Below, in pieces: positions 16,427 through 43,443 of a DNA stretch of 64,000 bases. Each line of letters begins with the position of its first letter. Position 1 is the stretch's first letter. The stretch is taken from assembly GCA_948144175.1 (NCBI GenBank), contig CANXME010001453.1, positions 2,480,001 to 2,544,000 of the forward strand, read 5' to 3'. This DNA is from Closterium sp. NIES-65. Taxonomy: Eukaryota > Streptophyta > Zygnematophyceae > Desmidiales > Closteriaceae. The notes beneath the pieces were generated by a model. That model was not told the origin of the DNA. It was given only the letters and a program-made list of their open reading frames with translations, and ran no database searches. A program made the translations under genes and the position numbers.

Positions 16427-16930
16427 TGTTGATGGGAATCGGCCCTGCCCTTGCTTGGGCGAAGCAGACCTTGCAATTCGGGGGGCGCGCAGAAGTTGTC
16501 GTAGACTGCGCGAGGAGTTCGACCTTGACCTGCTTGTATAGTTCGACCTCGACGCGTCCGCAGAGGACGCTGGTCTACGTGTCCATAGAGGACGCTGTTC
16601 GACGTGTCCGCAGAGGACGCTGGTCTATGAGATCGCAGAGGACGCGGTCGACGAGCTCGTAGAGGATGCTAGTCAACCAGCCCGTCGATGAGTTTGGTAT
16701 AGGAGCTCCTCGATGAGGCCGGTACAGGAGCTCCTATACGAGGCTTGTGAAGGAGCTCATCAACGAGATCGGTCGACAAGTACAGTTCGGCGCGCTCGTC
16801 TCGGCGAAGGCTGTTCGACGGAGCATCGTCAAATCACTTAACCGAAGCTGCTCACCTGCAAAGGTCGCAGATGTGCGCGAACTTCACTTCAGGAGGTTTT
16901 TGCGAAGTCGGCCTGTGGAACAGCATCACG
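16427..16930 (+). repeat. 3' LTR of element G, left part
   Basis: Begins TGTTGATGGG directly after the polypurine tract. It contains short direct repeats around gtccgcagaggacgctggtc (about 16555-16670). It is interrupted by TRIM1 at 16931 and resumes at 17306. The right end is not certain: TCAACA at 17340-17345 would make a 6-bp inverted repeat with the start, but promoter-like and polyadenylation-like sequence continues to about 17860. Confidence 0.6.
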
Positions 16931-17305
16931 TGTCAGTAGATCTGCACTGTGGATGCCCGATTGATCCTGGAGAGGGTTGCAGGCGCGTTTGCCTGGGGGG
17001 TTATGGGCGCACTGACCCGCTACTGAAACAAGCCCTTTTATCCCAATGGTCTAGTGGTTGGGATTCTGACATGGTATCAGAGCGGTCTCGGGTTCGATTC
17101 CCGGTGTACGCACATGTAGGCCATTGCCGCTGTGCTTAGTCCTGGACCTCCTAGTGTGGGGGGGTGTCAATAGATCTGCACTGTGGATTCCCGATTGATC
17201 CTGGAGAGGGTTACAGGCGCGTTCGCCAAGGGGGGTATGGGCGCACTGACCCGCTACTGAAACAAGCCCTTTTATCCCAATGGTCTAGTGGTTGGGATTC
17301 TGACA
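16931..17305 (+). mobile_element. TRIM1: 375-bp miniature terminal-repeat retrotransposon
   Basis: Two 141-bp direct terminal repeats (16931-17071 and 17165-17305), both TGTCA...TGACA, flank only 93 bases. The interior starts with a primer site TGGTATCAGAGC (17072-17083) and ends in a G-rich polypurine tract (to 17164). A 5-bp target duplication TCACG flanks the element (16926-16930 and 17306-17310). The repeats differ at about 7 of 141 positions, so it is moderately old. It has no coding capacity and would depend on proteins of autonomous elements. The boundary of 5' repeat and primer site is tRNA-shaped (separate entry). Orientation is assigned from primer site to polypurine tract. Confidence 0.93.
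17036..17112 (+). promoter_or_regulatory. tRNA-like RNA polymerase III promoter in TRIM1
   Basis: An A box TGGTCTAGTGG (17047-17057) and a B box GGTTCGATTCC (17091-17101) lie 44 bases apart start to start, exactly tRNA spacing. A 5-bp stem tctga/tcaga (17065-17069 with 17077-17081) encloses a 7-base loop in the anticodon-arm position, and the T arm pairs around the B box. The acceptor ends do not pair, so it is not a functional tRNA gene. A TTTT tract (17036-17039) precedes it and recurs in the 3' repeat (17270-17273), where it could end a transcript. The primer site lies inside the anticodon arm. Polymerase III use is inferred. Confidence 0.6.
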
Positions 17306-17868
17306 TCACGTGCTCGACGGTGCAGCGCTAGCGAAACCGTCAACACGTGTTCTACGTGGCACCTGCGCAATGTGCCTGGCGGCGCGTCCGTCTACCTACA
17401 TCTACTTTTGTAGGTGCGCAAATGCGCAGAAGCTCATCTGCCTTTGCAGCGCTGGCAGACCACTGCTATACTACGCTGGCACACTACTCTGCTGCAGCGT
17501 TGGCAAGCCGCTCTTCTGCCGCGCTGGCATAGTTCGCCCTTGAGAGGGCTGGTTAGGTGTTGTAATGCCTTTCTACCTATATCGACTTGCATGCCTCATT
17601 TGTAATATAATGTTCTTTCAATCTCCTAGTAAAACTCTTACCAAATCTCTTACTGAACATAGCAAGTAGTGAGAACGCCTAGTGCAACGCTACGATCACC
17701 CGCACAACCCGTGCCTTCCTCCGTAGTCCACTCTCATTATGTAGTGACTCTTCGCAGCTATATCCCATAGGCGGTTACTATTGACAAAATTCTTTTGCAT
17801 CATTGCATCCAAGTTTTGCGAATAAAACTCTTGCCAACTTTTGCTAGTTATGCGACGTAGTCCAACCC
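17306..17868 (+). repeat. Probable remainder of element G's LTR and flank
   Basis: No gene. The stretch contains repeats around gcagcgctggcagacc and gcagcgttggcaagcc, TTTGTAATATAATG-like A+T-rich sequence and an aataaaactctt segment (17821) that could act in polyadenylation. The end of the G LTR cannot be fixed without a second copy. Confidence 0.45.
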
Positions 17869-18115
17869 TGTCAGATGTCCACTGGAGATCCTCGATTGAT
17901 CCTAGGGAAGGGTTACAGGCACGTTGGCCTGGGGGGTTAGGGGCGCACTGACCCGCTACTTAACAAGCCCTTGTCAAACATTATATATGTTATACTTGTG
18001 TAGGCTACAGTGGGTTAGCCTATAGGGGGTACACAATTCTAGGGTTTCCTACTTGTACTCATTTCACTGCTAGTTCATTCATTCCTGTTCGCTTATTCTC
18101 ACATGGTATAGAGCG

Positions 18116-18150
18116 GGTCCTTCTACGGACCGTTTTTTCTTGGGCCCACC
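18116..18150 (+). promoter_or_regulatory. Leader stem-loop and GGGCCCACC box of element H
   Basis: ggtcc (18116-18120) pairs with ggacc (18127-18131) around a 6-base loop. GGGCCCACC follows at 18142-18150. The stem sequence differs from B's but pairing is kept. A second short stem (gcgcc/ggcgc) follows near 18155-18172. Confidence 0.5.
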
Positions 18151-18229
18151 GAAGCGCCCCCCGAGGCGCGATCTTTTTTTTAGCGACCCCTCGGGTCGCC
18201 ATTTCCCCTGCGGCCCCGCCGCCTAAACT

Positions 18230-19250
18230 GACGCGGCCCCGCCGCCCTCTCTGTCGCGGCCCCGCCGCCTGCTCTCACGCGGCCCCGCCCCGGCTCCTTC
18301 GCGGCCCCGCCGCCTGCTCTCGCGCGGCCCCGCCCCGGCTTCTACGCGGCCCCGCCCCGGCTTTCACGCGGCCCCGCCGACGGCTTTGTCGCGGCCCCGC
18401 CCAGGCCCTTACGCGGCTCCGCCGCCTGCTCTCACGCGGCCCCGCCCCGGCTCCTTCGCGGCCCCGCCGCCTGCTCTCGCGCGGCCCCGCCCCGGCTTCT
18501 ACGCGGCCCCGCCCCGGCTTTCACGCGGCCCCGCCGACGGCTTTGTCGCGGCCCCGCCCAGGCCCTTACGCGGCTCCGCCGCCTGCTCTCACGCGGCCCC
18601 GCCCCGGCTCCTTCGCGGCCCCGCCGCCTGCTCTCGCGCGGCCCCGCCCCGGCTTCTACGCGGCCCCGCCCCGGCTTTCACGCGGCCCCCGCCGACGGCT
18701 TTGTCGCGGCCCCGCCCAGGCCCTTACGCGGCTCCGCCGCCTGCTCTCACGCGGCCCCGCCCCGGCTCCTTCGCGGCCCCGCCGCCTGCTCTCGCGCGGC
18801 CCCGCCCCGGCTTCTACGCGGCCCCGCCCCGGCTTTCACGCGGCCCCGCCAACGGCTTAGTCGCGGCCCCGCCCAGGCCCTTACGCGGCTCCGCCGCCTG
18901 CTCTCACGCGGCCCCGCCCCGGCTCCTTCGCGGCCCCGCCGCCTGCTCTCGCGCGGCCCCGCCCCGGCTTCTACGCGGCCCCGCCCCGGCTTTCACGCGG
19001 CCCCGCCGACGGCTCTGTCGCGGCCCCGCCCAGGCCCTTACGCGGCCCCGCCGCCTGCCCCCGTCGCGGCCCGGTCACCTCCTGACGGCCCCGCCGTCCC
19101 TTCGTGACGGCCCCGCCGTCCCCTCCTAACGGCTCCTGCCGTCCCCTTCTACCGGCCCCGCAACTGCACCTGCTGGCCCCGCCGCTGCACCTACCGGCCC
19201 CCCCCACCACCCACCCCCCCCTTTTCCCGTCGCCCGTCACGGCTCCTTCG
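18230..19250 (+). repeat. 157-bp tandem-repeat leader of element H
   Basis: About five copies of a 157-bp unit run from about 18272 to 19060, recognisable by recurring ctctcacgcggcccc starts at about 18272, 18429, 18586, 18744 and 18901. Each unit is itself built from cgcggccccgcc modules. The period is not a multiple of three, and the open frame at 18386-19129 is a repeat translation (Ala/Arg/Pro), not a gene. To 19250 the repeats become C-rich. Confidence 0.85.
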
Positions 19251-19656
19251 GGGGCAGGGGTGGCAGGTGTGTGGCCTCCCCTGCTTCTCCTCCTCCTTCA
19301 TCTCCCACTGCAGCAGCCGAGCCGCTCACCTGCAGCAGCCGAGCCGCCCCACCGCCGAGCCGCCCTGCACCCGAGCCGCCCAGCAGCCGAGCCGCCCGGC
19401 CGCCGAGCCGCCGGGTCGCTGAGCTGCTGAGCTGCAGTTGCTGCCGAGCCGCCCTGCCGCCGAGCCGCCGAGTCACCGAGCTGCTGAGCTGCAGTTGCTG
19501 CCGAGCCGCCTTGCCGCCGAGCCGCCCGAGTCGCCCGAGCCGCCGAGCCGCCGAGCTGCCGAGCCGGTGAGTCGCCGAGCCTACTCTTCCCACCACTGGT
19601 GAGCTCTTGCCCTGCTAACACGCTGCGCGTCGCCTGCTTGCCTGCCTGCCTGCCTT

Positions 19657-22600
19657 TTGGCTTGCCTGGCTGCCTGCCTCCCTGCTGCTAGTCCTGCTCC
19701 TGCTTCTACTCGTGGTGGCGGCCAGATGCAGCTCCCGCGACCCTCTCGCGTGTCTCTCACGCCTCGCCAGCTTCGTGAGTGGTACGCTCAGAGTGGAGGG
19801 TCTCTCAGTGCTGTTCGCTGCTCTTACGTGATTCGCACTGGTACTCGGACTGGTCAAACTTGTGGGACACGTAGTCATACACCGTCCCGCTGCTTCGCCC
19901 GTCTGAGCGACGCCTGGCGTACCGTGTTTGGCGACGAGGCTGAGCTTCCCGACTGGGTGGAGTTGCTTAGGCAGAGGGTAGATATATATGCTCTTGACTA
20001 TGATGCTATTCTCACTGCCATGTATGCATTGCCTACTAGTGCTGACCGTGCCGGTCACCTGTGCGTCCCGCCTGACCCAGGTATAGGACCTGCTGCTCTA
20101 GCTACTGGTGAGGCTGCTGCTCTGGGTGCTAGTGAGTCTCTTGCTCTAGGTACAGGTGCGGCTGCTGCTCTAGGTGCTAGTGAGTCTGCTTCCTCAGGTG
20201 CGGGTGAGGCTGCGCTCTCAGGTACCGCGTTGGCTTCGGCCTCCCTCACCTTTACACTTGACTCTGCGGCTTCTCGCTCCTTCTTTCGGGACCGCACCAC
20301 ACTCACGCCGCTTGGTCGGCCGGTTGCAGTCTCCCTGGCTGACCCCTCTGGGGGTCCTGTCCTCGCTCACTTCTCCACTGTCCTCCCGTGTCCGGCTGCC
20401 CCCTCGGGCACCCTGTCTGGCCTGTACCTCCCCTCGTTCTCGACGAACTTGGTGAGTGGTGCAGACCTACAGGATGCGGGGGTTCACCAGTTCACTCCTG
20501 CGAGTCAGCGGGTGACCCACTGCACGGACGCACGCACAGGCCGGCACCTGGCCACGTTCTCGCGTCGGCCGGGGTCGAGCCTCTACACCCTGACCACTGA
20601 GTCTCCTCCTGTCCCCGCGTCCGGTCAGGTAGCAGCGTCGGGTCAGGTGTTTGCTCCAGCGTCCAGGTCTGGTCCTGAGTCTGCCCCCTGTTCGTGTCGC
20701 CTCCTGTCTCACGAGACTCTTCTGTGGCACCACCGTCTAGGCCACCCCTCCTTGCCCCGTCTTCGGGGCATGGCTTCCCGTGTCCTTGTCTCTGGTCTTC
20801 CCCAGTCTCTCCCTCCCCTTCCTTCGGGACCAGGACCTTCCTGTGTCCCCTGTGTCGAGGGGCGCCTCAGGGCTGCTCCTCACTCCTCCCAGTTTCCCCC
20901 GACAGAGGCTCCTCTGCAGACGCTTCACATGGACGTGTGGGGCCCGGCCCCCGTCCGTGGGCAGGGTCACGAGCGCTACTTCCTGTTGGTGGTTGACGAC
21001 TACTCGCGTTACACCTCAGTCTTCCCCTTGCGCAGCAAGGGTGCTGTCACTGAGGTGCTGATCGACTGGATCCGCGAGGCTCGTCTCCAGCTCAGGAAGA
21101 GCTTCGGCTCGGACTTTCCTGTTCTGCGTCTGCACTCTGACCGAGGTGGGGAGTTCTCCTCTTGCCTTCTGCAAGACTACTGTCGTGCACAGGGGATCCG
21201 CCAGACCTTTACGCTTCCGGACTCTCCACAGCAAAATGGGATTGCTGAGCGCCGCATTGGCATGGTCATGGATGTCGCTCGTACGTCCATGATGCATGCG
21301 GCTGCCCCCCATTTTCTGTGGCCGTTTGCGGTTCGGTACGCGGCGCATCAGCTCAACCTTCACCCCAGGGTCTCTCGGCCCGCGATGTCCCCAGTGTTAC
21401 TGTGGACGGGGAAGGTTGGCGATGCGTCTGCGTTCCGTGTCTGGGGATCTCGGGCGTTTGTCCGCGACTTGTCTGCGGACAAGCTGTCCCCCCGTGCTGC
21501 TCCCTGTGTCTTCCTTGGCTTCCCCCCTGACGCTCCAGGGTGGCAGTTCTACCACCCCTCCTCTCGTCGTGTTCTGTCCTCCCAGGACGTCACGTTCGAC
21601 GAGTCAGTCCCCTTCTACCGCCTCTTCCCCTACCGTACTCCTTCCCTTCCCCCCCCACCGGACTTCCTGGTACCAGTTCCCCCCCCGGTAGACCCCCTCC
21701 CCCCTCAGGTTCCTGCCCCTTCAGGTGTGTCCCAGGTAGACACGGTCGAGCCAGTCGAGGTTGCTGCTGAGTCTGGTCCTGCTGGGGGTGCTGAGTCTGG
21801 GGGTGCTGAGCCGGGGGGTGCTGAGCCGGAGGGTGCTACGTCAGGAGCTGCTGAGCCTGGGGGTGCTGGGCCTGGAGGTGCGGAGCCTACGCCTGCTGGA
21901 CCTGGGGGCTCTCCGGTTCTTCCGTCTCGGCGGGAGCCGCTCTCTCCACAGGTGCTGCGCGAGTGGTTTGCTCGCCGCTGGAGGCGTGCTGCTGGAGCTG
22001 GAGCTTCTTCGCCTGCTGAGGGTGCTGCCGGTCCCGGAGCTGCTGGGCCTGCGGGTCCTACTCGAGCTGGAGCTACTGAGTCGGGGGGTGCTGAGTCTGG
22101 AGCTGCTGAGCCTGGAGGTGCTGAGTCTGGAGCGGCTGTGCCTGGGGGTGCTGAATCTGGAGCTGCTGAGCCTGGGGTTTCTCCTGCTGCTGCGTCTCGC
22201 CGGGAGCCCCTCTCTCCACAGGAGCTGCGTGAGTGGTTTGCTCGCCGCTGGAGGAGTGCTGCTGGAGCTGGAGCTTCGTCGACCGTCGAGGGTGCTGGTG
22301 CTGCCGGTCCCGGAGCTGCTGGGCCTGCGGGTCCTACTGGAGCTGGAGCTGCTGAGGGTGTTGGTGCTGAGACTACTGCTGTCTGTCCTGGCGGTGGTTC
22401 TGCTGCTGGTGCTGCTGGAGGTCCTGCCGCTGGAGGTGTTGGTGGCGCTGGTGCTGTCGCTGAGGGTGCTGGTGCTGTCCCTGCTGAGTCTGGAGCTGCC
22501 GCGCGGCCTCGGCCGTACTTCGTTCCGCTCCTACAGCAGGTTCTTGGTCTTTCTCCTTCGGTAGAGTGTCCACAGCCTGTCCAGTCGCAGTCACTGTTGG

Positions 22601-24742
22601 AGCCTTCCTCTCCTCTGCCTGCTCCCTCTCCTTACACTGGTCCTACTGGAGGTCTTGCTGAGCGTCGTGAGCCTGCGTCTCGTCCCGCGTCGCCTGTTCG
22701 TGCTGCTCGCGCTAGTGGTCGCGGTTCGCGTCAGCGTCCTCCTCCTGTCCCTGGCACGCACCGGATGTCTCTGCGTCCGTCCACTGCTCCTCTGCGTGCC
22801 CCTTTGCCTTCTCCTCCTGAGTCCTCTCTTCCTGCGCTTGCCGACCCTGAGTCGGACTCTCTTCGCGCTGCCAGTCCTACTGTCACGCGTCTGCTTGCTA
22901 CTGTCGTCACCGACCCCTCTTTTGAGTCCACTGCTGCGTCTGCTCTAGTCGCTGAGCTCGTTGACTTTGCTGCTCGCTGTCGTCTCGACTACGCTGCTGG
23001 TCTTGTTGCTGAGTCTGCGTCTGTCTGTCCTCCGTCCGTCGGGGGTGAGTGTGCTCTTGGCACGGACGTCCTAGAGGACAGACAGGAGGAGTTACAGTGT
23101 CTAGCGGCTGCTTCACCTCATCTCGCGTCTGTACTGCTTGCCCCTGAGGGAGACCCGGATGCACTAGACATCCCGACTCCGCGTTCTTACGCGGAGGCCG
23201 TAGAGGGTCCCTACTCCTCTCAGTGGCAGGCAGCTATGGATGCAGAGATGGCTTCCTGGAAGTCCACAGGCACCTACGTTGACGCAGTTCCCCCTCCTGG
23301 GGCGAACATCGTCAGTGGCATGTGGATCTTCCGGGTGAAGCGGCCGCCGGGCTCTCCACCTGTCTTCAAGGCGCGGTACGTTGCTCGTGGCTTCAGTCAG
23401 CGGCAGGGAGTTGACTACTTTCAGACCTTCTCTCCCACCCCGAAGATGACCACTCTTCGGGTGCTGCTGCACATAGCCGCTCAGCGCGACTACGAGCTTC
23501 ACTCTCTCGACTTCAGCACTGCGTTCCTGCAGGGTAGCCTGCACGAGGAGATTTGGCTGCGCCGTCCACCTGGCTTCACTGGGACTTTCCCTCCTGGCAC
23601 CCAGTGGAGCCTCCGACGGCCAGTCTACGGTCTCCGCCAGGCACCGCGTGAGTGGCACGACACACTGAGGACTACGCTGGCGGCACTTGGGTTTGCTCCT
23701 TCTACTGCTGACCCGTCGCTGTTTCTGCGCACCGACACTTTACTGCCGCCGTTCTACATCCTCGTGTACGTCGACGACTTGGTCTTTGCCACAGCGGACA
23801 CTGCTGGACTCGCCTACGTGAAGTCCGAGCTGCTGAAGAGACACACGTGCACAGACCTGGGTGAACTGCGCAGCTACCTTGGCTTGCAGATCACTCGGGA
23901 CAGAGCACGCCGCACCATTACCTTGACTCAGTCACACATGGTGCAGCAGGTCCTTCAGCGCTTCGGCTTCACGTACTCCTCGCCTCAGGCCACTCCTCTG
24001 CCTAGTCGCCACTCACTCTCAGCTCTGCCTTCGGATGAGTCCGTAGAGTCGAGTGGTCCGTATGCAGAGCTTGTTGGCTGCCTCATGTACCTGATGACGC
24101 GCACACGACCTGACCTTGCATACCCTCTGAGCATTCTTGCACGCTATGTTGCTCCTGGGAGACACAGACCAGAGCACATGGCTGCAGCGAAGAGGGTATT
24201 GCGCTACCTGTGCAGTACGTCGGGCATGGGGCTTGTGCTTGGAGGGCGGAGTCCAGTGGTCCTTACCGGCCACGCGGACGCTTCTTGGGCTGACGACCAG
24301 GCTACGCAGCGGTCGTCACAGGGTTACACCTTCAGCCTTGGTTCCGGCTCTGTCTCGTGGCGGTCTACTCGCTCGTCTTCGGTTCTCGGCTCCAGTTGTG
24401 AGGCTGAGATCTACGCCGGGGCCATGGCTGCACAGGAGCTTCGCTGGCTCACCTACCTGCTGACTGACCTTGGAGAGCCGCCTCGTTCTCCTCCAGTGCT
24501 GTACGTAGACAACAAGGCCATGCTGGCGAGAGCAGCGCTTGGAGCACAGAACGAAGCACATTGCTCTCCGCTACTTCCTTGCTCGTGAGCTGCAGCAGCG
24601 TGGTCTGTTGCGAGTTGCGTACGTGGCCTCTGAGGCCAACACTGCTGATGTGTTCACCAAGGCACTCGCGCCTTGTGATCATCAGCGCTTTTGCACCCAG
24701 CTGGGTCTTGTGTCTGTCTTGCCTCACTTGCTCTCCTCTTGA
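19657..24742 (+). CDS. Pol polyprotein (with Gag C-terminal part) of element H
   Basis: A long open frame, about 1,640 residues, followed by the RNase H end. Order: Cys/His motif RCSYVIRTG...RCFARLSDAW (about 19816-19920), protease region TFTLDS (about 20250), GAG-pre-integrase HHRLGHPSLPRL (about 20730), integrase with MDVWGP (about 20931), HSDRGGEFSS (about 21133) and SPQQNGIAERR (about 21223), GGAEPGGAE-type linker (about 21770-22500), reverse transcriptase with YVDDLVFA (about 23767) and RNase H ending DVFTKALAP (about 24650). It processes, copies and integrates element RNA. The upstream edge is uncertain: 19657 is simply the first ATG of the frame. About one break. It is the best-preserved pol in the window. 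Confidence 0.88.
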
Positions 24743-25327
24743 CTTTACTTGTACTGTGACATATATATATACTTGCTCTTGCTTGTCTAGTTTTATATAT
24801 ATGTCTGTACTCCTGCATGTGAACTGGCCTCTGGCCCTGCTCTTGTGCTCGGACTGTGTGGTGACTTTGTGATCCACCCTGAGCTTGCTTTGCTTTGCTT
24901 GACTGGTCTTGTGACCTCTTGTTCTCCCCCACTTTGCCTATGGGGGTGTGTCAAACATTATATATGTTATACTTGTGTAGGCTACAGTGGGTTAGCCTAT
25001 AGGGGGTACACAATTCTAGGGTTTCCTACTTGTACTCATTTCACTGCTAGTTCATTCATTCCTGTTCGCTTATTCTCACAGCCCTTTTATCCAAATGGTC
25101 TAGTGGTTGGGATTCTGACATGGTATCAGAGCGAAGGTCTCGGGTTCGAATCCCAGTGTGTGCACCTCGGGCATCTCAGTGCGAGGGGGTGTCAGAGGTC
25201 CACTGAAGATCCCTGATTGATCCTAGGAAAGGGTTACAGGCACGTTGGCCTGGGGGGTTAGGGGCGCACTGACCCGCTACTTAACAAGTCATTTTATCCC
25301 AATGGTCTAATGGTTGGGATTCCGACA

Positions 25328-40155: not shown

Positions 40156-40707
40156 TAGTACTCAAACTTCTGCTTTCCAAGTTTCTTGGTCAAGTAATCT
40201 GCTGCCATCTCGGTCGTGGGGCAGTAGGATAGCTCAAGTCTTCCTTTCTCGATTTCGTCCTTCACGAAGAAATGGCGTAAGGCAATGTGCTTCGTTCGGT
40301 ATGCGAACCCGCTCTTGTTCGCTATGCGAATTGCCGATTGGTTCTCGCAGAAGAGAGAGAAGCTGGGTAACTGGGCCAGCTTTGCTTCTTCCAGTAGTTT
40401 GCAGAGGTGCAGTCCTTCCTTGGTGGCTAAGCAGAGTGAAATGTATTCTGCTTCAGCAAAGGAGAGAGCAATTAGTTCTTGCTTGCTCGACTGCCAAGAG
40501 ATAGGATGACGAGCTCAAGTCGATAGCGTCAGAATGTTATCATTGTCAAGTGAGGTACTCTATAGTGAGTACAACCCAAATTAGGGTTTGCTATATGTAC
40601 TGCCCTACTTACTAGTGAACCCTCTCCTTTGTTCATTTCTCTCTTGCCTAGCTAGCTAAACCCTAGCTATGGCTCCTCACTGTGCTTACTCTTGTGACAT
40701 GGTATCA

Positions 40708-40739
40708 GAGCATTTACGCTCCTGGCCTGTGGGCCCACC
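40708..40739 (+). promoter_or_regulatory. Leader stem-loop and GGGCCCACC box of element I
   Basis: gagc (40708-40711, overlapping the primer site) pairs with gctc (40718-40721) around a 6-base loop, and GGGCCCACC follows at 40731-40739. Conservation in an element with no genes argues that the signal acts in RNA rather than protein. Confidence 0.5.
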
Positions 40740-43396: not shown

Positions 43397-43443
43397 ATCT
43401 GGTATCAGAGCTGCATTATAGTGATCCTAGATATAGGTAGCTA

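Follow-up and report, generated by a model that had tools for sequence, protein, structure and literature searches.

What transcribes a retrotransposon that is too short to code for anything and whose replication primer lands inside a tRNA-like arm? The question is posed by TRIM1, a complete 375-bp miniature LTR element (TRIM) at positions 16931-17305 of the 64-kb stretch of Closterium sp. NIES-65 DNA analyzed here (the window). It is a true TRIM that moved recently, and a box A and a box B of the tRNA type lie on either side of its LTR/interior junction. From this layout we infer, with a probability of roughly 0.6, that the family uses a tRNA-type (type 2) RNA polymerase III (Pol III) promoter that forms only at the boundary between 5′ LTR and interior.

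TRIM1 has the anatomy of a TRIM: less than 1 kb in length, it carries two short LTRs around an interior without coding capacity, a primer site adjoining the 5′ LTR, a purine-rich tract before the 3′ LTR and a short target-site duplication. All features lie on the plus strand. LTR comparison places the 141-bp LTRs at 16931-17071 (TGTCAG...CTGACA) and 17165-17305; the pair differs at 7 of 141 positions, and the 3′ LTR begins with TGTCAA instead of TGTCAG. Exact copies of TCACG flank the element at 16926-16930 and 17306-17310. The interior between the LTRs (17072-17164, 93 bp, too short to code) opens with the primer-binding site TGGTATCAGAGC (17072-17083), which is complementary to the 3′ end of initiator tRNA-Met plus CCA, and closes with the polypurine-type tract GTGTGGGGGGG (17154-17164), two T included.

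A tRNA-like unit straddles the LTR/interior junction. The original prediction placed an A box in the last 31 bases of the 5′ LTR, followed by a 5-bp stem with a 7-base loop, a T arm and a B box at tRNA-like spacing, and every one of these parts is present. Box A, TGGTCTAGTGG, occupies 17047-17057 within the 31 terminal bases of the 5′ LTR (17041-17071), and as a strict motif fits into the last 25. Box B, GGTTCGATTCC, lies in the interior at 17091-17101. The two strict motifs start 44 bp apart, as in tRNAs, with the 12-base primer site between them. The anticodon-like arm TCTGA-CATGGTA-TCAGA (17065-17081, stem 17065-17069/17077-17081) spans the LTR end and, as predicted, contains the primer site (17072-17083); the T-arm-like hairpin TCGGG-TTCGATT-CCCGG follows at 17088-17104. 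A TTTT tract precedes the unit in both repeats, at 17036-17039 and 17270-17273. The latter is the first TTTT from 17040 on and a candidate Pol III terminator. Box A recurs in the 3′ LTR (17281-17291), with no box B behind it.

The box pair stands out from chance. A strict B box occurs twice in the 64-kb window on both strands, once per TRIM copy. In both cases the start of a strict A box falls in the range 30-60 bp upstream, at distances of 44 and 47 bp. In 200 dinucleotide shuffles of the window we counted a mean of 0.985 B boxes and a mean of 0.005 A+B pairs, and one of the 200 contained any pair. Compared with a panel of 18 plant tRNA genes, the TRIM1 unit reached a best score of 26, against a maximum of 13 for 300 base-order shuffles. 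On the same panel, the corresponding units from three further subfamilies reached 21, 21 and 24 (best shuffles 14, 13 and 16).

The unit resembles a tRNA without pointing to a single parent. The best matches in the panel of 18 were Gln (26), Gly (23) and Pro (22), and none of them could be singled out as the parent. Pro is a lead at most: counted from the start of box A, the TGG of the primer site comes at 25 bases, just where two host tRNA-Pro(UGG) genes have their anticodon TGG, and GATTCT plus the box A core are common to the unit and the host tRNA-Pro genes (n = 10) when compared by eye. A tRNA family search of the genome, in which the best 63 of 18,457 candidates were scored, gave no lead to the parent; 61 of the 63 read as organelle-type, on small contigs. 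ARAGORN (bacterial code) called no tRNA in the 64-kb window and, at relaxed settings, one poor tRNA on the unit (score 34); with the standard code and introns allowed, it called all 20 fetched host tRNA genes. Rfam assigned no family in the 64-kb window at gathering score, 5S included. With a relaxed threshold, its sole match in 16900-17400 was the T-arm part of a tmRNA family at 17089-17103 (10.6 bits, E 0.38).

The likeness to a tRNA is partial in shape as well. D, anticodon and T arms can be recognized by sequence, in keeping with the earlier description of the promoter as tRNA-shaped, but the acceptor stem is absent, and with it the cloverleaf of a functional tRNA, and the D-arm bases pair otherwise in the predicted fold, in a hairpin ATCCCAA/TTGGGAT. 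The predicted minimum-energy fold of 17040-17112 consists of three hairpins: this 5′ hairpin (17040-17064), which covers box A, the anticodon-like arm and the T arm. Its stability gives z = -1.96, with 5 of 200 shuffles at least as stable. When the whole 245-nt candidate RNA is folded, the first hairpin alone is kept in the prediction (z = 0.45; 137 of 200 shuffles at least as stable).

TRIM1 is one of many copies. We searched the 874-Mb genome (2,400 contigs) with TRIM1, scoring the best 40 of 606 first-look candidates, with at least 43 matches. Searches with other copies gave 1,313, 1,904, 1,546 and 1,243 candidates, of which the best 40 were scored each time; these sets may overlap, and the counts are lower bounds. 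In the fetched loci a 5′ LTR end adjoins an interior 106 times, or 90 times after removal of identical junctions. This sample is biased towards the top of the similarity searches, and it still counts some insertions more than once, as with L001, L002 and L065. Strict box A and strict box B are each found in 79 of the 90 junctions, the exact primer site in 70, TTTT in 86, the 5-bp stem with a 7-base loop in 68, ATCCCA/TGGGAT in 82 and CAA upstream in 89. The unit of the most divergent copy, L043, used as a query (best 40 of 483 candidates scored), matched places other than its own at 82-87% identity, some of which coincide with families already in the set.

Young copies reveal which parts persist. 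Both LTRs are available for 86 copies; the 5-bp duplications are exact in 51 of these and have at most one mismatch in 60. We defined as young those of the 60 with at most one LTR difference; there are 23, all with exact duplications. Strict box B is intact in 23/23, strict box A in 21/23, TTTT in both LTRs in 21/23 and the anticodon-like 5-bp stem in 16/23. The seven copies without the stem are L030 and six members of subfamily C (L041 and L089-L093). One young copy with identical LTRs, L096, has TTCT in both of them and a changed box A end, so that its strict box A is lost, and L007 has no TTTT in its 3′ LTR. A TTTT intervenes between the unit and the 3′ LTR stop in 3 of 86 copies. Box B is thus the best-kept part in young copies, and neither stem nor TTTT is indispensable. 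The expectation that boxes and stem alike would be conserved across copies is borne out for the boxes, present in nearly all young copies, and weakened for the stem, which is not required.

Subfamily C and several composite loci illustrate how the family varies. L089-L094 and L041 make up a very young subfamily whose LTRs end in CTGAGA instead of CTGACA; 40 places, the best 40 of a longer list, are 98-100% identical to L041. Six of its seven fetched copies carry an extra C in the primer site together with the broken stem, and L094 has neither. Elsewhere, LTR-interior-LTR-interior units are arranged in tandem (L058, L069, L083, L086, L097, L099 and G000 C398:310424-311265), in some cases mixing subfamilies. 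At L024 1283-1500, and likewise in L023, a different 125-bp repeat ends at the primer site and is followed by TRIM interior and LTR-interior-LTR, an arrangement suggestive of recombination at the primer site that both share.

The boxes are conserved within a core that is wider than the promoter. We measured mean identity between subfamilies, gaps skipped, over 36 of the 86 rows representing 7 subfamilies; using all 86 rows in 16 clusters took in truncated and chimeric rows and overstated the contrast. Identity is 0.77 for LTR positions 16931-16980, 0.92-0.93 for 16981-17025 and 0.95 for 17027-17057 (box A alone 0.90). It is 0.95 for the primer site and 0.90 for 17084-17113 (box B alone 0.94), falls to 0.77 in the mid-interior (17114-17146) and returns to 0.90 at the polypurine end. 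Counting gaps as mismatches lowers the mid-interior to 0.43, a value made up mostly of gaps because the interiors of subfamilies B and C are shorter, at ~70 bp. With B and C left out, the mid-interior stands at 0.80-0.81 and box B at 0.93. Conservation has no sharp 5′ edge: the core begins at ~16995, and of all 87-base stretches the most conserved is the one from 16998 (0.945), ahead of the unit itself (0.928).

The window holds a second copy, TRIM2, split by a nested LTR element. The left part of its 5′ LTR runs from 17869 to 17971. A 7,109-bp element with two identical 132-bp LTRs and the duplication GCCCT follows at 17972-25080, and the remainder of TRIM2 lies at 25081-25327, with box A at 25096-25106, the primer site at 25121-25132, box B at 25143-25153 and the 3′ LTR at 25190-25327, all on the plus strand. 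The insertion point is a CCCTTTT stretch just before the tRNA-like unit. The nested insertion looks young, because the TRIM is uninterrupted in a very similar locus that lies on a different contig (L002/L065). We had considered the repeat copy at 17909 as a chimeric LTR, belonging to an autonomous partner that shares the first part of the TRIM LTR, and rejected this: it is the 5′ LTR of TRIM2 cut by the nested element, whole in L002/L065. Within the nested element, 18197-19100 is a long GC-rich array of the GCGGCCCCGCC type with 22-23-bp spacing. Two further exact TGGTATCAGAGC sites in the window, at 40700-40711 and 43400-43411, have no strict box B behind them and are possibly primer sites of other LTR elements.

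Host tRNA genes supply the putative primer and a standard for the signals around the unit. A plant initiator tRNA-Met query matched 33 places in the genome, six of them at 100% over 72 bases, in line with a streptophyte host, and we fetched 20 host tRNA genes (10 iMet and 10 Pro). All 10 iMet genes end in GCTCTGATA; once CCA is added, this end is an exact complement of the TRIM1 primer site. Runs of at least four T occur within 60 bp of 18 of the 20 genes, the first run being exactly four in 14 of these 18, so TTTT is a plausible stop in this host. The 40 bases upstream average 48% A+T in 86 TRIM copies versus 69% in the 20 host genes, a difference that speaks against a strong promoter. CAA falls in the last 20 upstream bases of five of the 20 host genes, so its presence upstream of the TRIM unit is no strong sign. 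Only two of 89 LTRs from the TRIM family contain TATAWW, a motif that the nested 7,109-bp element has in both of its LTRs; its absence is weak evidence, because an LTR of another element at ~40542-40699 lacks it too.

The boxes could instead be passengers in an ordinary Pol II element. A TRIM of that kind that had captured a tRNA or SINE fragment would carry them along by hitch-hiking, and conservation would reflect the primer site, the LTR end and packaging signals for a helper. The extension of the conserved core upstream of the unit to about 16995 fits this account, as do an upstream A+T content that is low for a tRNA gene of the host and a mid-interior that, with gaps skipped, still contrasts only moderately with box B. 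It fits less well that conservation continues past the primer site, through 17084-17113 and box B, at levels above those of the next 33 bases, that no young copy has lost its strict box B, and that TATAWW is so rare in the LTRs. We consider passenger boxes rather unlikely, though a serious contender.

Selection on RNA structure, not on a promoter, is a further way to keep D-arm and T-arm sequences, for example in a leader that folds so as to present the primer site or bind the Gag of a helper. The three consecutive hairpins predicted for 17040-17112 and the retention of ATCCCA/TGGGAT in most junction copies would suit such a role, but the stability of that fold is modest, all except the first hairpin disappear from the predicted fold of the whole RNA, which is no more stable than its shuffles, and the primer-site hairpin is broken in seven of the 23 young copies. 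We regard this explanation as improbable. Mere coincidence is scarcely credible: the boxes are short, yet we found nothing else in its favor, and it must contend both with the single shuffled window in 200 that contained an A+B pair and with a tRNA-panel score that none of 300 shuffles approached.

We favor a Pol III promoter assembled at the junction, and the anatomy suggests how it could serve the life cycle. Weighing against it are the upstream A+T content, unlike that of host tRNA genes, a conserved core wider than the unit, the altered primer site and stem of most subfamily C copies, the loss of TTTT and strict box A in L096, and the lack of a tRNA call by ARAGORN or Rfam. Type 2 Pol III promoters are internal, so a box B past the primer site would still be transcribed. 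TFIIIC would bind the two boxes together, the LTR contributing A and the interior B. Initiation by Pol III would occur near a conserved AACAAG (about 17028-17031), ~10 bases ahead of the tRNA-like part, and the polymerase would read the interior and stop at the TTTT of the 3′ LTR. The product would be a roughly unit-length RNA of ~240 nt with a short terminal repeat of ~ten bases (about AAGCCCTTTT), ending in TTTT. Priming by initiator tRNA-Met would take place within the tRNA-like arm, and the enzymes, which also make the 5-bp duplications, would come from an autonomous helper, probably of the Copia type. Each new insertion would rebuild box A beside box B, giving one promoter per complete element; a 3′ LTR or a solo LTR would have box A only.

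The original proposal of a transcript running from TTTT to TTTT calls for adjustment. Its length is indeed nearly that of a unit, 234 bases as computed from a start at 17040 and a stop at 17273, but such an RNA has no terminal repeat for strand transfer, so a start a little upstream or leaky termination would be needed. Nor is TTTT strictly required, given the TTCT in both LTRs of L096.

The unit may also have a single origin for its two putative roles. A captured tRNA gene could have fused with the replication signals, its anticodon becoming the start of the primer site, as the box A-to-TGG distance shared with tRNA-Pro(UGG) would suggest, so that one 70-base module would act as a Pol III promoter in DNA and as a landing arm for the primer in RNA, assembled only at the LTR/interior junction. 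We put this forward as a speculative and, on present evidence, unlikely origin. Were it true, there would be one promoter per complete element and none in LTRs alone, a way of organizing a promoter that the parts of the literature covered here do not describe for other LTR elements.

TRIM1 combines features of several known kinds of element. tRNA-derived SINEs are short non-coding retroelements driven by tRNA-type boxes. TRIM1 has such boxes in common with them but differs by its LTRs, primer site, polypurine tract and 5-bp duplications, the marks of LTR-type integration. Its size, LTR/interior/LTR layout and frequent tandem arrays are those of the ordinary plant TRIMs of Gao et al. 2016 (PMC4717578), the main text of which contains neither "tRNA" nor "polymerase III".

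The closest relatives by description are the Helenus elements. In the sections of Kojima 2024 used here (PMC10886601), TRIMs with tRNA-derived sequence in their LTRs are named Helenus, and TRIMp3 is coined for Helenus, Ajax and Cassandra together. Its hosts are fungi, animals and a single plant, Selaginella moellendorffii, where the LTR measures 120 bp and the interior 85 bp. Target duplications of 5 bp are given for fungi and plants, and the use of Pol III by Helenus is stated there to have no experimental validation. Helenus and the TRIM1 family are alike as miniature LTR elements with tRNA-like boxes A and B, a primer site, a polypurine tract and 5-bp duplications. In Helenus, as far as descriptions can be compared, the tRNA-like sequence lies inside the LTRs (PMC10886601), whereas in the TRIM1 family the boxes are divided between LTR (A) and interior (B), on either side of the primer site: the TRIM1 LTR ends at 17071, ahead of box B at 17091-17101, and the 3′ LTR is without box B.

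Cassandra offers a parallel with a different promoter. Going by the portions of two papers used here (PMC7215508, PMC10886601), Cassandra and the TRIM1 family both have a candidate Pol III promoter in a TRIM, the same primer site TGGTATCAGAGC and tandem LTR-interior arrays; as in Cassandra, the proposed TRIM1 RNA would begin within the 5′ LTR, terminate within the 3′ LTR and bear a short terminal repeat, which in Cassandra measures 18 bp (PMC10886601). The Cassandra promoter is of the 5S type and lies wholly inside each LTR, whereas that proposed for the TRIM1 family is tRNA-type and split over the junction (PMC7215508, PMC10886601); no 5S rRNA-like promoter sequence was found in the window by Rfam at gathering score.

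The novelty of TRIM1 is one of layout. The original prediction considered a tRNA-type promoter in a TRIM not to be standard; tRNA-type TRIMs have been published as Helenus, but the junction-straddling arrangement is not described in the part of Kojima's Helenus paper used here (PMC10886601). Among the matches listed in our literature searches, judged by title or the start of the abstract, none concerned a junction-spanning promoter in LTR elements, most subscription journals being outside that coverage; a text search for the box B sequence in connection with LTR retrotransposons listed a single paper, unrelated by its title. What appears to be new is that a tRNA-type promoter of a kind known from TRIMs, with Pol III as the polymerase suggested by its sequence, is split over the LTR/primer-site junction.

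The TRIM1 family brings this biology into a plant genome with young copies. tRNA-type TRIMs were named in 2024 with one plant species among their hosts and, according to the portion of that paper used here, no experimental validation (PMC10886601). The family is a system for testing whether LTR elements really switch polymerase, and for asking how a Pol III transcript keeps the terminal repeat for strand transfer. It also carries a prediction of its own: solo LTRs should lose the promoter in the TRIM1 family, but not where the whole promoter lies inside the LTR.
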